Source: Aquabacterium sp.
Lineage (GTDB): Bacteria > Pseudomonadota > Gammaproteobacteria > Burkholderiales > Burkholderiaceae_C
Assembly: GCF_029946005.1 (NCBI RefSeq)
Contig: NZ_JAQSDR010000008.1
Location: 186,001-250,000, forward strand
Length of the DNA stretch: 64,000 nt
Direction of reading: 5' to 3'
Shown here piece by piece: positions 31,981 through 59,032 of the stretch. The position numbers and the translations under genes are program-made. Under the pieces are notes generated by a model that did not search any database, was not told the DNA's origin, and was given only the letters and a program-made list of their open reading frames with translations. Positions within the stretch are counted from its first letter, which is position 1. The number at the start of each line of letters is the position of its first letter.

Positions 31981-32819
31981 TGCCCGCCAACGTGCAGCCC
32001 ATCACTTCGCGCGACAACCCTTTGGTGCAGCGTCTGCGCAAGCTGGCCCAGGATCCAGCCGCTTACCGCAAGCTGGGTGAAGTCTGGCTGGAAGGGGATC
32101 ATTTGTGCTCCGCCTACCTGGCACGGGGCAAGAAGGCCGCTGTGGCGGTGATCGCCGATACCGCCTGGCTGGGTGAGCATGGCCTGGGCAATGGTGGTGA
32201 CCCGCTGGCCTACAAGCTGACGGCCCTGGCACGCCAAGCTGACAAGGTGGTCGTGTTGCCAGAGTCGATCTGGAAGGGTTTCACGGGGCTGGAGTCACCG
32301 GCCCGCCTGGGTTTCCTGGTGCAGACGCCCTTGTTGGGAGATGGACTGGCCACGGCGGATGTGCGTGCGGGCGTGCCCACGGTGGTGCTGGACCGCGTCC
32401 AGGACGCCGGCAATGTCGGCAGTATTTTGCGCAGCGCTTCGGCCTTGGGCGTGTTGCAGGTGGTCGCCATGAAGGGGACGGCCGCTTTGTGGTCGCCCAA
32501 AGTGCTGCGGGCCGGCATGGGCGCCCACTTTGCATTGCACCTGGTGGAGCAGGCCTTGCCCGAGCACTTGGCAGGTTTGCAGGTGCCCATGGTGGCGACC
32601 AGCTCCCATGCAGACCACGAACTGCCTCGCGCGCCCCTGCCTGAGCCCTGCGCCTGGGTTTTGGGTCACGAAGGGCAGGGCGTGGGACCGCAGATCATGG
32701 CGCTGTGTGCTCACACAGTGTCGATTCCTCAACCTGGCGGCGAGGAGTCGCTCAACGTGGCTGCTGCGGCGGCCATTTGCCTTTACGAGTCATTGCGCCG
32801 TCGATGTGGCGGCATTTGA
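31974..32819 (+). CDS. TrmH/SpoU-family RNA 2'-O-methyltransferase
   Basis: 281 residues. An N-terminal substrate-binding region ([19 protein letters not shown]) is followed by the trefoil-knot SpoU domain with [28 protein letters not shown] and the SAM-binding [20 protein letters not shown]. It most likely methylates rRNA or tRNA; the target cannot be read. Starts at GTG 31974 or ATG 31980 overlap the end of rnhB. Confidence 0.9.
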
Positions 32820-53823: not shown

Positions 53824-55764
53824 ATGATCAAAAAAGCACTGACGATCCGCGGTCGGTTTGCGTTGCTGCTCACGATCTGCGCGCTGGCGATATCCATTCC
53901 TGCCGGGTTGTTGAGTTGGCGGTACATCAATGAGGTACGCATCGCCCAGCGCGAGGTCACCGGGATGGCTCCAGCGCTTGCTCTGCTGGAAGTGATTCGT
54001 GTCGTGCAGCAGCACCGTGGTTTGTCGGCAGTCTTGTTGGGCGGGGATGAGGGTGCTGCGCCCAAACGCGTTGCCAAACAGGCCGAGATTGAGAAGGCCA
54101 TGGCTGCATTTGCTGCGCATGTGACAGCCGATGAAGCTCAGGCATCGCGATTGGGCGCCGCCTGGAAGCTCGACATGAAGAAGTGGCAAGAAGTCAGCCA
54201 GGCGGTGGCCGACAAGCGCATCACCGGCCCCGAGTCTTCCGCGCGCCACACCGCAATGCTGGCCAGCATGCTGAGAACGCTGGGTGAGGTCGGAGACCAT
54301 TGGGGGCTGTCCTTGAGCGCAGAACCATCGGTCTATTTCTTGACACTTGGCACCCTGTCAAACGCCCCAGGCATGATTGAAATGATGGGCCAGACGAGAG
54401 CGCGCGGCGCCAACTTGCTGTCCACCAAGCAGGCACTTGATCCTGCCGACAAGGCGCGCTTTGAGGCCTTGCAGATTCGCATGCGCAGCGCCTATGAAGA
54501 CATGCTGTTGACCTTTGAGAAAGGCGCGACGGCGCATGCGCAGTCGCGTGGTCGCATTGATGAGGTGGCGAAGAGGCTCAACGAGCTGGCTCAAACGGGC
54601 ATTGGCCTGGCGCAGACGCACGTCTTGCAACCTGCGGTGCCCAGCTATCCAAGCGCGGCGTATTTTGCCGAGACCACCAAGGTCATTGACGCCATGTACG
54701 AGACGCTGTGGCAAGCCATGGCCTTGCTGAAAGAATCATCCGAGCAGAATGCTGCCGATGCACGCAACAGCGCCATGGTGGCCATGTTGCCGGTGGTGCT
54801 GTTGTTCATGGTGGCCGCCGCTTTTGCTTTGCGGACTGGACATTCCATCAGGCGTGAGCTTGGTGCCGAACCCTTCGAGTTGCGGGCGGTCGCGCGCAAT
54901 GTGTCGAAAGGCGATCTGTCGTCCCCGATTGAACTGGCCCAAGGCGACGATCACAGTGTCATGGCGGCTATACGCCAAATGCAGATATCGCTGACCCAGG
55001 TGGTGAGCACTGTCCGTGGCAATGCAGAAAGCGTGGCAACCGCCAGCGCGCAGATCGCCCAGGGCAACCAGGATCTGAGCCAACGCACCGAGCAGCAGGC
55101 GAGCGCGCTGCAGCAGACTGCCGCGACCATGGATGAGCTGGGTAGCACCGTGAAGAACAATGCCGACAATGCAGCGCAAGCCAATCAGCTGGCACAGGAT
55201 GCCTCCACGGTGGCAGCCAAAGGCGGGGACGTGGTGCGCGAGGTGGTTCAGACCATGAGGGGCATCAACACGAGCTCGCGCCAGATTGCCGACATCACTG
55301 CCGTCATTGACGGCATTGCCTTCCAGACCAACATCCTGGCGCTGAATGCCGCGGTTGAAGCGGCGCGGGCAGGAGAGCAAGGCCGGGGATTTGCCGTGGT
55401 CGCTAGCGAAGTGCGCACATTGGCCCAGCGCTCGGCCACAGCCGCCAAGGAGATCGGCGCGTTGATCGCCGAGAGTGTGGCGCGCACTGATCAAGGTGCT
55501 GCACAGGCGGATCAGGCCGGGCGCACCATGCAGGAAATCGTGACATCCATTCGCCGGGTCACCGACATTGTGGCCGACATCAGTTTGGCCAATGCAGAAC
55601 AAAGTAGCGGTGTGGGGCAGGTGGGGCAGGCAGTCTCACAAATGGACCAAGCCACTCAGCAAAACGCAGCGTTGGTGGAGGAGTCGGCCGCAGCTGCCGA
55701 GAGCCTGCGCCAACAAGCGCAGCAGCTGGTCCAGGCCGTCGCGGTATTCCAACTGGTCAGATGA
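53824..55764 (+). CDS. Methyl-accepting chemotaxis protein with NIT-like periplasmic sensor
   Basis: 646 residues. The first membrane helix is at about 13-31 ([19 protein letters not shown]). A long helical periplasmic domain of about 270 residues ([38 protein letters not shown]) resembles the nitrate/nitrite-sensing NIT type. Then come a second helix ([16 protein letters not shown]), HAMP and the signalling tip [20 protein letters not shown] with [12 protein letters not shown]. There is no C-terminal CheR-tethering pentapeptide. No che gene is nearby. Confidence 0.93.
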
Positions 55765-55783
55765 TCGTGGCTGCTTGAAGAGG

Positions 55784-56110
55784 TCACGCTGAATCGTCTT
55801 CAAGCCCACCCAAACGCTCTGCCTCATCCAGGGCCGCCATCAGGCATTCCTGACTGGCCTGGGCACCTTCCAGGTGGTCATCGGATTCGGCCCTCGCCAC
55901 GATGGCCGCATCGACTGCCGCCAGCAGCGTTTCAAGCACCGGTCTGAGCGCTTGGGGGTAGGGGTGGGAAATGATGATGGACTCAATGGCTGCGTGGTAC
56001 ATCCGCTGGTGGCCCCCCAGGTTTTGCAGCAGCGCAACCAGCTCGCCGTTCTGGACGGTCAGCTGTGCAATGTCCTCTTCTAACTTATCGATGCGTTCTT
56101 CTGTGGTCAT
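55784..56110 (-). CDS. Small coiled-coil protein of unknown function
   Basis: 108 residues from ATG 56110; a longer in-frame reading to 56200 is less likely. The N-terminus is a heptad-like helix (EERIDKLEEDIAQLTVQNGE), followed by a helical, acidic body. I do not recognise the family. It converges on the chemoreceptor gene with 19 bases between. Its start lies about 96 bases from the LexA-like box at 56206, which could also affect it. Confidence 0.6.
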   Translation of the reverse strand: MTTEERIDKLEEDIAQLTVQNGELVALLQNLGGHQRMYHAAIESIIISHPYPQALRPVLETLLAAVDAAIVARAESDDHLEGAQASQECLMAALDEAERLGGLEDDSA

Positions 56111-56205
56111 GGCCGAGGTTTCCAGATGGGTGAGCCATGGTAGTGGCAAGTCACCCTCAACTTGAGCAGGGTTGTGCCTCAATCCCCACATGGCTTTCAT
56201 GAATG

Positions 56206-56221
56206 CTGTATAAAATTACAG
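56206..56221. promoter_or_regulatory. LexA (SOS) box 1
   Basis: CTGTATAAAATTACAG fits the LexA operator CTG-N10-CAG (E. coli consensus CTGTATATATATACAG) with an AT-rich core. It contains a -10-like TATAAA (56209-56214) and ends one base before the ATG of the 30-codon ORF at 56223. Confidence 0.75.
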
Positions 56222-56222
56222 T

Positions 56223-56315
56223 ATGAAAACGCTGTTGGAACAGGATTGGGTTGATTGGGGTGTGGACCTCGCATTGACAATGGCCATGCTCGGAACCCTG
56301 GTGTATCCATGGTAG
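56223..56315 (+). CDS. Putative 30-residue hydrophobic peptide behind a LexA box
   Basis: The ORF encodes MKTLLEQDWVDWGVDLALTM followed by AMLGTLVYPW, then TAG. It has a short charged head and one hydrophobic stretch (about 13-28) long enough to sit in a membrane. The ATG is two bases past the end of a LexA box whose inner TATAAA would place transcription start at or just before the ATG, so a leaderless mRNA is possible; no ribosome binding site is seen. Size and control recall TisB of E. coli, but there is no sequence match claimed. Coding status is inference. Confidence 0.45.
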   Translation: MKTLLEQDWVDWGVDLALTMAMLGTLVYPW

Positions 56316-56404
56316 GCCTGATGCTGTCTTCCCTGTGTCACATGACGAGGCCACCCTTGGGTCCCTTGGATGTGCCTAACCACTGCCAGAAAGGACGTGT
56401 CAGC

Positions 56405-56518
56405 ATGAAGCGCACCCCCTCTAAGCCCTTCTTTCTGCGTCTGTTGGACGACTGGGTGGTCGACATCAGCGCTGCATTGGCCCTGGCCGGGACTTTGTTG
56501 GTGATGTGGGTCAGATAA
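56405..56518 (+). CDS. Putative 37-residue single-pass membrane protein
   Basis: The ORF encodes MKRTPSKPFFLRLLDDWVVD followed by ISAALALAGTLLVMWVR. A basic head precedes one membrane helix. AAAGGA lies about 10 bases upstream. The pattern DWV.D....AL..AGTL...W is shared with the 30-residue ORF upstream (DWVDWGVDLAL...LGTLVYPW), which suggests a family or an old duplication. It lies between two LexA boxes and could be read from the first. Confidence 0.55.
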   Translation: MKRTPSKPFFLRLLDDWVVDISAALALAGTLLVMWVR

Positions 56519-56545
56519 CCTAATCCGGTGTGATGGCATAAAATA

Positions 56546-56561
56546 CTGTATAAAATAACAG
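56546..56561. promoter_or_regulatory. LexA (SOS) box 2
   Basis: CTGTATAAAATAACAG differs from box 1 at a single position. It too contains TATAAA (56549-56554) and ends one base before an ATG (56563). Shared sequence extends through the following TATG. Confidence 0.75.
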
Positions 56562-56562
56562 T

Positions 56563-56760
56563 ATGGAAGCGCACCTTAAAGACACCTGGATTCAGCGTTG
56601 CGCGCAGCGCATTGCCGAGTTGCGCCCCCAGTTGCGACCCCGCCTGGCCACCTTGGTGGCGGCTGAGCTGTGGCAGGACATGCGAGGACACATTCCGCCC
56701 GAAGAGTGGGCTGAGATCGAGGTTGATACTTGGGGCAAACAAGGGGCCCCCAACAGGTGA
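56563..56760 (+). CDS. Small soluble protein of unknown function behind a LexA box
   Basis: 65 residues, EAHLKDTWIQRCAQRIAELR, then LATLVAAELWQDMRGHIPPE and EWAEIEVDTW. It looks like a small helical protein with an Arg-rich middle. The family is not recognised. Its ATG is two bases past LexA box 2, again with no ribosome binding site, so the same leaderless layout as the 30-residue ORF. It ends ten bases before the converging kinase gene. Confidence 0.6.
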   Translation: MEAHLKDTWIQRCAQRIAELRPQLRPRLATLVAAELWQDMRGHIPPEEWAEIEVDTWGKQGAPNR

Positions 56761-56770
56761 GGCAGCACCA

Positions 56771-59032
56771 TCAGGATGGCTGCGGCGACGGGATGACTTC
56801 CATTTTTTGGGTGCTTTGCTTCAGGGGTAGGGTGACGCGGAAAGTGGTGCCCTCGCCTTCCACGCTGTGCACGCTCATCTGCCCCGCGTGTTTCTGAACA
56901 ATCCCATACGACAACGACAGGCCCAGCCCCGTGCCTTTGCCCACAGGTTTGGTGGTGAAGAAGGGGTCAAAAATCTTGACCAGGTTATCGGGCGAGATGC
57001 CGCAACCGGTGTCTTCCACTTCGATTGACACCGAGTCGTCCCCCGAGCTTGTACGCACGGTGATCTTGCCCCTTGTTTCTCCGATGGCATGTGCCGCGTT
57101 GACGACCAGATTCATCACCACCTGGTTGATCTCTGACGGCAGGCATTCCACCAGGGGGATGTCGCCATACTCTTTGATGATTTCAGCTTTGTACTTGACC
57201 TCGCTGTTCACCATGTTCAGGGTCGAATTGATCCCGTCGTGCAGGTTGGCCATCTGCCATTCCTGGGAGTTGTCGACGTGTGAGAAGTCTTTGAGGTCTT
57301 GCACGATCTTGCGAACACGTTCAATGCCATCTTTGGTTTCGCGCATCAAGAGCGGGATGTCGTCCTTGATGTAGTCAAACTCAAGCTGATCCTTCAAGTC
57401 GAGGATCCGTGTTCGCAAGGCCAGGTCAGCCAGTTGGCTCTCGGTTTCCTGATAGGTGTCCAGCATCTGCAGCAGGCTGTTGAAGTACCCGTCCAGCGCG
57501 CCAATGTTGGACAACACGAAGCCGATGGGGTTGTTGATTTCGTGGGCGACACCGGCGGCCAGCAGCCCGATGGATGCGAGTTTTTCCGATTGCACCAGCT
57601 GTTGATGGGTTTCCGTGAGCTTGTGGTTCAGCGCAGTCAGCTCGTTGTTGCGGCGCACCAGCTCGGCTTCAATGCGTTTGCGTTCGCTGATGTCTCGGAC
57701 GATGGCCACCACACCGCTGCCAGCGCGTACCACCTGGGCATGCAGCCATTGGGCTCGGATGGAGGGTTCATGGTTCTCCCATTCCTGGTCATGTGCGATG
57801 CCAGTGTTGACGACCTGGCACAGCACCTTGAATGCACTGGTGTCACGGATGTCTGGCAGCAAGGCTCCGATGGGCTTTCCCAACATGGCCGATTTGTTCA
57901 GATTCAGCAGGGCCACGCCACGACTGTTGGTGTCGGTCAGCGCGAAGTCACTGATCGCGCCTTCTGAATCGCACAGGCTGTGCAGGACAAACGTGGCGTC
58001 TCTGCTCGCTTCCGAGGCTGCCAGATAGGTTTCCTGTGCCTTGAGCACCCGAGACCTGCTTCGGGCCAGTTGCCGCAACAGCATGCCCAGCGCGATCACC
58101 AGCGCGCTGACGAGCGTGGCTTGCCATCGGTAGGCCTGCTCGCGAGGTAGGAACGAGGCGAGTTGTTCTTCCTCGGAGAGCCCGACCACGGTTGTGATGC
58201 CAAACATGCTCAAACTTTCTGAGACGGTGTAGCGCTTGATGCCATCCCAGGGGCTGAGCAGGAGCTTGGCGGCGCCTTCGTCTTCGGGAGTGGCGGGAAT
58301 CAAATGCTTCAAGGGCCCGGTGCCATTGCCTTCGATGATCTTGTCGCCGCTGCGCGCCACGATCAGGTCACCGCGGGCTCCCAGGACCCCCAAGGTGCCT
58401 TTCAACCCCATGCGCGAAGGCTCATAGTCGCTGGTGAAGTACTCGGGGTTGATGGACACACTCACCACACCCGCGAAGGCGTTGTTGGCATCGGTGAGCC
58501 GACGTGCAAATGTCATTCGGCTCTTGCCGGTTCTTGGGTCTCGCACTGCAGGGCCCACGTAGAGCGTGTCCCCCAGTCGTGTGTGCTCGCTGAAGAACCG
58601 AAAGTGCGGTTGATCGACCGCGCGCGATACTTCGCCACGGTTGTCGTTGTTGGTGGCCACAATGTCGCCGTGGTGATCGGCCACATCGATGACGAACAGC
58701 AGCGCCGTGGGGATCAGCAATTCGCTTTCAAGGTTGGCCAAGGCCCGGGTCAGGCCTTTTTGCTCGCTGACGTACCGGACGACGTTGATGGTGAGGTCGA
58801 TCTCGCGCAATGCGCGCAGCATCTGCACTCGATAGACGCCTGACAGGTTCTGAGCGGCGATTTGAGCTTTGCGCTCGGCAGAGGCGCGTTCGCGTGCGGT
58901 CCAGTTGAATGTGGCGACCCAAATCGCGATCAGGACAAGCCCGGTCAATGATGGGATCAGGCTGGACGCATCACCGCGGAAGATGCTGCGCATGCGCCAA
59001 CGCGACAGGGTGGGCCCGTTCAATTGAATCAT
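56771..59032 (-). CDS. PAS-containing sensor histidine kinase (orphan)
   Basis: 753 residues. A first membrane helix (LIPSLTGLVLIAIWVATFNW) precedes a large periplasmic dCache-like sensor (VGPAVRDPRTGKSRMTFARR; GVVSVSINPEYF) and a second helix near 310-330. A PAS domain, a coiled-coil (NNELTALNHKLTETHQQLVQ), HisKA with the phospho-His in GVAHEINNPIGF, and HATPase (VMNLVVNAAHAIGE, GKGTGLGLSLSYGIVQ) follow. It lacks a receiver and no response regulator gene is adjacent. Confidence 0.92.
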   Translation of the reverse strand: MIQLNGPTLSRWRMRSIFRGDASSLIPSLTGLVLIAIWVATFNWTARERASAERKAQIAAQNLSGVYRVQMLRALREIDLTINVVRYVSEQKGLTRALANLESELLIPTALLFVIDVADHHGDIVATNNDNRGEVSRAVDQPHFRFFSEHTRLGDTLYVGPAVRDPRTGKSRMTFARRLTDANNAFAGVVSVSINPEYFTSDYEPSRMGLKGTLGVLGARGDLIVARSGDKIIEGNGTGPLKHLIPATPEDEGAAKLLLSPWDGIKRYTVSESLSMFGITTVVGLSEEEQLASFLPREQAYRWQATLVSALVIALGMLLRQLARSRSRVLKAQETYLAASEASRDATFVLHSLCDSEGAISDFALTDTNSRGVALLNLNKSAMLGKPIGALLPDIRDTSAFKVLCQVVNTGIAHDQEWENHEPSIRAQWLHAQVVRAGSGVVAIVRDISERKRIEAELVRRNNELTALNHKLTETHQQLVQSEKLASIGLLAAGVAHEINNPIGFVLSNIGALDGYFNSLLQMLDTYQETESQLADLALRTRILDLKDQLEFDYIKDDIPLLMRETKDGIERVRKIVQDLKDFSHVDNSQEWQMANLHDGINSTLNMVNSEVKYKAEIIKEYGDIPLVECLPSEINQVVMNLVVNAAHAIGETRGKITVRTSSGDDSVSIEVEDTGCGISPDNLVKIFDPFFTTKPVGKGTGLGLSLSYGIVQKHAGQMSVHSVEGEGTTFRVTLPLKQSTQKMEVIPSPQPS

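Follow-up and report, generated by a model that had tools for sequence, protein, structure and literature searches.

We analyzed a 64,000-nucleotide stretch of Aquabacterium sp. DNA (the window), taken from a genome of 4.53 Mb in 41 contigs, and found that a small group of short genes lies around two LexA-type boxes on its plus strand. First, box 1 (CTGTATAAAATTACAG, 56206-56221) is followed by a single base (T, 56222) and then by an ORF (56223-56315, stop included) for a 30-residue peptide with one hydrophobic segment, MKTLLEQDWVDWGVDLALTMAMLGTLVYPW. The match to the LexA operator with an ATG directly behind it was thus present as claimed in the preliminary description of this DNA, with one base in between. 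Second, a paralogous membrane peptide of 37 residues, MKRTPSKPFFLRLLDDWVVDISAALALAGTLLVMWVR, is encoded on the plus strand at 56405-56518, without a box of its own and with AAGGA upstream. Third, box 2 (CTGTATAAAATAACAG, 56546-56561, plus strand) ends one base 5' of the ATG of a 65-residue ORF (56563-56760, plus strand), whose product, a soluble partner protein with three predicted helices, belongs to an unnamed LexA-linked family. The two boxes are 340 bases apart and have equal spacing to their ATGs; box 2, the 65-residue soluble ORF and the 37-residue ORF in between had been overlooked in the preliminary description. On the minus strand, a gene for a 109-residue coiled-coil-like protein (55784-56113) diverges from box 1. 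This neighbour, which matched no protein family above its cut-off, was present in 5 of the 42 genomes of the genus, the same five that carry membrane peptides at the locus, and it is probably not part of the module. Box 1 was rejected as the operator of this divergent gene, since two of its five genomes lack box 1, and an operator 5' of the 37-residue ORF was also rejected, CTGTGTCACATGACAG of genome G230 not being kept in the other four genomes. In G230 (locus L130), 962 bases lie between the 37-residue ORF and box 2 and hold other ORFs, one of them tautomerase-like and one MarR-like by eye.

Analysis of the occurrence of LexA-type sites revealed that the bare CTGT-N8-ACAG pattern proves little, because its three matches in the window (0.8 expected) were also reached in 4 of 100 shuffles. 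The third of them, CTGTGTGCTCACACAG at 32703-32718, is not AT-rich and is probably due to chance. The AT-rich form, CTGTAT-N6-ACAG, occurred at 9 distinct sites in the 4.53-Mb genome (reversed-pattern control, 0), two of which fall in the present locus. Other strict sites precede lexA, imuA and an integron integrase (named by NCBIfam) as well as a radical-SAM-like ORF (by eye). The genome's own lexA (TIGR00498, 220.5 bits) has its box, CTGTATAGAATGACAG, 27 bases 5' of the ORF, and box 1 has the operator form used there and lies at the presumed promoter. In the alignment, box 1 reads CTGTATAAAACAACAG in G215 and CTGTATAAAATACCAG in G230, where one half-site base is changed, so that the half-sites are strict in two of the three genomes carrying the 30-residue ORF; box 2 is identical in G214, G230 and G235. 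Among 13 Aquabacterium module genes, namely 10 that were found by protein similarity without using the box and the three 30-residue genes, CTG-N10-CAG + T + ATG was present in all and CTGT-N8-ACAG was kept in 11.

The -10 element had been placed inside box 1 and read as TATAAA in the preliminary description. A -10-like stretch does lie there, but it is better read as TAAAAT (56211-56216), because in G210, G211 and G220 the sole sigma-70-like promoter of each scanned stretch (TTCACA or TACACA, 17 bases, TAAAAT) has its TAAAAT inside the box. No sigma-70-like promoter passed the scan of 55700-56900 on either strand of the window, and box 1 of G215 gave none either. Six bases separate TAAAAT from the ATG of the 30-residue ORF, and the same layout was observed in G210, G211 and G220. 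A transcript starting 6 to 7 bases after TAAAAT would therefore begin on or next to the ATG and be leaderless or nearly so, since this distance leaves no room for a leader from that promoter. The earlier suggestion of LexA-type control combined with a near-leaderless start is backed by sequence.

Conservation of the membrane peptides and their fusion to the soluble domain

Two other Aquabacterium-like genomes have box 1 and the 30-codon ORF as well, likewise one base apart; their orthologues of the same length are MKTLLENNWIEWGLDLALTMAMLGTLVYPW (G215) and MKTLLGNDWIDWGVDLALAVAMLGTLVYPW (G230). Loss of the ORF in relatives that retain the box, which had been considered a sign against a real gene, was not encountered: both other genomes with box 1 keep the ORF intact, and the 30 codons are free of indels in all three. 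The in-frame dN/dS values were 0.19, 0.18 and 0.31 for the three pairs among these 3 genomes, and the other two frames gave 0.63-5.08 where defined. Variable sites were distributed over the codon positions as 7/1/11 (3 sequences, p 0.024), and the synonymous excess had p values of 0.009, 0.008 and 0.085 for the three pairs. This codon pattern, whose comparison had been proposed along with the peptide, fits a selected peptide, and the coding evidence from 3 sequences could be regarded as good but not overwhelming. Coding on the opposite strand was rejected; the minus frames are partly open over the same 110 bases in the three genomes, and the pattern of variation over codon positions agrees with the plus frame. 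In G214 and G235 the locus is retained, with neither box 1 nor the 30-residue ORF. Because of this absence and of the changed half-site in G230, the 30-residue piece is dispensable.

The preliminary description had also noted one hydrophobic segment in the 30-residue peptide. The segment is there, but its hydrophobicity is moderate, the Kyte-Doolittle value being 1.69 over the best 15 residues and 1.27 over 19, which is marginal, the stretch having an Asp inside. Over 19 residues, the three 30-residue forms scored 1.27, 1.27 and 1.54, the 37-residue forms 1.86-2.11, the 38-residue form 1.73 and the tails of the fused proteins described below 1.66-2.11. A membrane segment in the 30-residue form, and its insertion, are therefore suggested mainly by its relatives. 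The 37-residue ORF has orthologues of the same length in G214, G215, G230 and G235, in addition to a 38-residue copy in G215; its variable sites by codon position were 13/8/24 over 5 sequences, and dN/dS was 0.03-0.43 in the 9 pairs (of 10) for which it is defined. NCBIfam gave two matches of approximately 13 bits to the 37-residue peptide, against cut-offs of 182 and 135, and none of Pfam, PHROGs, PADLOC and NCBIfam names any module protein.

When the 42 genomes of the genus were searched with a profile of the membrane peptides, the matches at E 1.8e-9 or better, which came from 5 genomes, were the 12 rows of the profile itself and nothing else; the following match had E 0.054. These peptides consist of a single segment with a DWxxD...GTL core and have been seen in Aquabacterium-like genomes only so far. 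When 399 genomes of the bacterial family were searched and the best 15-20 candidates per genome were scored, 41 genomes had a match at E up to 0.2, and the best match outside this genome (E 2.9e-4) lay in a 769-residue frame. At 29 of those loci (L175-L203), neither a strict nor an AT-rich box was present near the match, and three loci with short frames were unlike the family by eye.

The module was carried by seven named relatives: five Aquabacterium sp., one Leptothrix sp. and one Burkholderiales bacterium. With the 65-residue protein as query, we identified 16 places in 9 of the 42 genus genomes, which comprised 10 with box + T + ATG, five paralogues of 38-40% identity without box, and one fragment. 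The fragment (L138, G231:C56:146562) resembles the protein's C-terminal third (60% over 20 residues), lacks box and start, and is possibly a decayed copy. Six genus relatives with box + T + ATG showed 61-90% identity, and dN/dS of the 65-residue gene was 0.06-0.27 in the 18 pairs (of 21) for which it is defined. In G214, G215 and G235, the soluble domain is fused to a membrane segment in a box-controlled protein of 106/107 residues (dN/dS 0.13, G214-G235). In G210, G211 and G220, a box-controlled soluble gene of 62 residues has a membrane-peptide ORF, preceded by AGGAG, 112-155 bases 3' of it; the interval contains terminator-like sites in G210 and none in G211 or G220. The 49-residue membrane ORF had a dN/dS of 0.15 (G211-G220). 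With a hold-out profile, the membrane ORF of G220 reached 12.9 bits, compared with a best value of 4.7 in 58 other loci, and those of G210 and G211 were at the top of their own loci with 3.7 and 3.0 bits, values within the null; the latter two may be tied in to the family by their likeness to G220. The fusion found in three genomes, and the neighbouring position of the two parts in others, indicate that in this lineage soluble domain and membrane segment probably cooperate at the inner membrane. A mobile origin was rejected, as tblastn with query A3 found no relative in viral contigs and the fused protein of G214 was without relative in plasmids or phages.

Distribution of the soluble family beyond the genus

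Pfam gave no match to the 65-residue protein at E up to 1. Our searches of the bacterial family covered samples of 200 or 399 genomes, the best 15-20 candidates per genome being scored in profile searches. With E values of up to 0.001 and scoring of the 15 best candidates in each genome, a profile of the 65-residue protein matched 22 of the 399 genomes, and at 3 of the 29 loci besides the window's own (L069, L072 and L073, from three genera) a LexA-type box ends 7-29 bases 5' of the ORF. A second profile (A9), which was built from these three relatives, found 49 places in 40 of the 399 genomes and 26 of 141 genera (best 15-20 candidates per genome scored), two of them in this genome, and it matched the window's 65-residue protein at E 1.2e-6 (profile versus profile probability, 97.3). 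Strict CTGT-N8-ACAG was present within 120 bases upstream of the matched domain at 25 of the 47 places outside this genome, in 15 genera, versus 0 of 47 for the reversed pattern. Without the three rows of the A9 profile the count was 23 of 44; by score, the strict box was found at 24 of 39 places with 40 bits or more and at 1 of 8 weaker places. Of 3000 pieces drawn at random from the first 30 loci, 127 had a strict or AT-rich box. Thus, given 25 of 47 places with the strict box against none with the reversed pattern, SOS control of the module is well supported by sequence, and we consider control by LexA highly likely. Outside the genus, the distance from the box to an in-frame ATG was 7-46 bases in the 22 cases (of 25) where such an ATG follows, and the one-base spacing is therefore special to the Aquabacterium genes.

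The membrane-peptide profile at E up to 0.05 had no match at any of the 47 soluble-family loci outside this genome, so that docking by such a peptide cannot be the general mode of the soluble family. As far as searched, the membrane peptides appear to be a lineage addition to a widespread LexA-linked soluble family. AlphaFold2 predicted three helices for the 65-residue protein (mean pLDDT 78.7), and three similar helices, a low-confidence linker and a C-terminal helix for the fused protein, with a low mean pLDDT of 58.3. Comparison with the PDB by sequence gave best E values of 0.051 and 0.13 for the soluble profile and no match for the membrane profile, and comparison by fold gave no significant match (best E 0.13). 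Similar ORFs downstream of the soluble gene (by BLAST) are common to L207, L209, L229 and L242, those of L207, L209 and L242 being without Pfam family.

In beta-Proteobacteria, an unnamed gene, hypA, has been predicted to be LexA-regulated (PMC3323433). Like the soluble family, to which it might belong, hypA is thus unnamed and linked to LexA. The accessible part of that study, which also deals with splB, describes no membrane peptide or fusion, unlike what is found in the Aquabacterium module (PMC3323433). We found no paper on this module in the open-access literature.

Possible function of the module

The genes, boxes, spacing, selection, homology and fusion can be read directly from the sequences, and they suggest that the 30-residue ORF represents a genuine gene under LexA control and forms part of a small module. 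This module would consist of a three-helix soluble protein of approximately 60-80 residues and of single-segment membrane peptides, the two parts being neighbouring genes or one tail-anchored protein of 106/107 residues in relatives. In the mechanism that we infer, which includes LexA binding, induction, a leaderless start, membrane insertion and docking, LexA on the box would cover the -10 element, judging from its position. DNA damage would lead to cleavage of LexA, and transcription would then start at or next to the ATG, providing a near-leaderless mRNA for immediate translation. In the Aquabacterium lineage, the soluble protein would work docked at the membrane via the peptide segment, and the free 30- and 37-residue peptides would either dock it or bind the same membrane partner. 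The likeliest effect would be a transient inhibition of a membrane-embedded complex of growth or division, and not pore formation. The target and an arrest of division are speculative, and division as the target of the module is possible but doubtful.

Both YneA and SosA are membrane proteins and have other domains and hosts than the Aquabacterium module. They are SOS-induced division inhibitors of Bacillus and Staphylococcus, respectively (PMC13396833, PMC6851548); compared with them, the membrane segment of the module is C-terminal and partly encoded by a separate gene. Among known systems, SidA of Caulobacter crescentus comes nearest in size and control (length, LexA and probably one membrane segment); it is a 29-residue division inhibitor of the inner membrane that is induced by the SOS response and interacts with FtsW (PMC4211646). 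SidA acts on FtsW/FtsI/FtsN, and the module is proposed to act somewhat likewise. What sets it apart from SidA is the presence of paralogous peptides, of a soluble partner that has a box to itself, and of a fused version. A LexA-controlled small soluble protein that is docked at the membrane by a peptide and acts in a SidA-like manner on a membrane complex is thus the best explanation that we can offer, and we hold it tentatively, with somewhat less than even confidence.

A search for SulA (PF03846) gave no match in this genome, with a control match obtained in E. coli. Absence of SulA is usual in this bacterial group and hence weak evidence. It is conceivable, but in our opinion unlikely, that the soluble proteins form a widespread new LexA-controlled family that is the missing SOS effector of this SulA-less group. 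In Aquabacterium, it would have been turned into a membrane checkpoint, made either in one piece, as a tail-anchored protein, or in two separate halves encoded by paralogous box-ATG cassettes, and the free peptides would complete the docked form or compete with it. The locus is a small and tractable candidate, its LexA-linked protein family being represented in 26 genera of one bacterial family, 15 of which show strict boxes, and the natural fusion in one genus suggests the place of action of the soluble family.

On the other hand, the module might serve DNA repair or damage tolerance, in which case the soluble family would be an accessory of LexA-controlled repair operons and the peptides would only place it at the membrane. 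The gene 3' of the soluble ORF encodes SRAP (SOS response associated peptidase; PF02586, 59.4 bits) in G125 and a DUF5131 protein (PF07505, 362.9 bits) in G366, both behind LexA boxes; the downstream ORF of L222 resembles the SRAP neighbour by BLAST, Pfam giving it no name, and many members of the soluble family are without membrane peptide. However, the downstream ORFs mostly differ between loci, a Pfam scan of five others revealed no family, and it is not obvious why a role in repair should entail selection on two membrane peptides and fusion to one of them. Because the SRAP and DUF5131 neighbours point to DNA repair no less than to division, we keep a repair role open, while considering it rather improbable.

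The 30-residue gene may have been derived from a fused gene by loss of its middle, which is a guess from likeness. If so, it could be a by-product: an internal deletion in the box-controlled fused gene would have left the box, the first codons and the membrane segment, and the peptide may be dominant-negative or near loss, the 65-residue or fused protein being the working part. The fused proteins end in a segment homologous to the peptide, which, beyond its two orthologues, is closest to the tail of the G215 fusion (48%). Apart from inner box bases, the fused gene of G215 has box + T + ATGAAAACGC in common with the 30-residue genes, and the two genomes without the 30-residue ORF, G214 and G235, keep the fusion. 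The conserved 30 codons with their low dN/dS in three genomes argue against a by-product, as does G215, which retains both the fusion and the free peptide, and we regard it as quite unlikely.

The preliminary description had compared the peptide with TisB of E. coli, and a depolariser of the TisB or DinQ kind would enter the inner membrane after SOS induction, lower the proton-motive force and cause dormancy. TisB and DinQ are both SOS-controlled inner-membrane peptides (PMC11575346, PMC3567139). The Aquabacterium peptide is like TisB in small size, SOS control through a LexA-type box and one hydrophobic segment, and like DinQ, which has 27 residues, in LexA control and probably in a single membrane segment (PMC3567139). 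Beyond size and LexA-type control, the analogy with TisB did not hold. The Aquabacterium peptide has a net charge of -3, with one Lys and four acidic residues, and its homology to the tail of a larger fused protein is also unlike TisB. TisB depends on a structured leader that is processed and carries a standby site, and the antisense RNA IstR-1 keeps it in check (PMC11575346); for DinQ, the translated form is the processed +44 transcript, and the antisense RNA AgrB opposes it (PMC3567139). The Aquabacterium mRNA, in contrast, would be near-leaderless. In agreement with the preliminary description, no antisense RNA gene was found, there being no Rfam match at E up to 1 within 55600-57000 and no sigma-70-like promoter on either strand within 55700-56900, although an RNA of a new kind under another type of promoter may exist. 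Neither the antisense RNA gene nor the structured 5' leader of a type I toxin-antitoxin system was thus predicted at the locus, and a depolarising action appears very unlikely. Finally, an AT-rich palindrome standing by chance before a functionless short open frame was rejected as extremely improbable: the bare pattern is near chance in the window, but this reading is contradicted by the strict-site count (9 versus 0), the two equally spaced boxes, and the conservation with codon-level selection across relatives (in-frame dN/dS 0.18-0.31).

Other LexA-type sites

A search for box + one base + ATG reveals SOS genes below the length limit of ordinary gene callers. In the bacterial family, CTGTATA-N5-ACAGTATG was present in 46 of 200 genomes, the reversed-pattern columns being 0 throughout. 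Among 48 such sites listed, 31 lay in the 30 loci examined, and an ORF with the radical-SAM motif NPYRGCEHGC follows 22 of these 31. One radical-SAM protein of that kind, from the same genus and with a related pattern, matched NF033668 (PA0069 family) at 441.1 bits. Homologues of splB have been predicted to be LexA-controlled in beta-Proteobacteria (PMC3323433), and the radical-SAM genes behind box + T + ATG may be splB.

Within this genome, the box CTGTATATCCATACAG lies 32 bases 5' of the integron integrase (L054, G000:C34:2789-2804; TIGR02249, 458 bits), which makes this integron a candidate for SOS control. Two ImuA-like ORFs (L048, G000:C6:47714, and L134, C9:189254) each stand behind a LexA-type box, the former being confirmed by NF033429 and the latter recognized by eye, and a strict LexA-type box was observed 33 bases 5' of a putative DNA cytosine methyltransferase ORF (L049, G000:C6:322176; by eye). 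Further ORFs of 100-127 residues were located directly behind a LexA-like box + T + ATG in relatives (L016, L024, L122 and L128).
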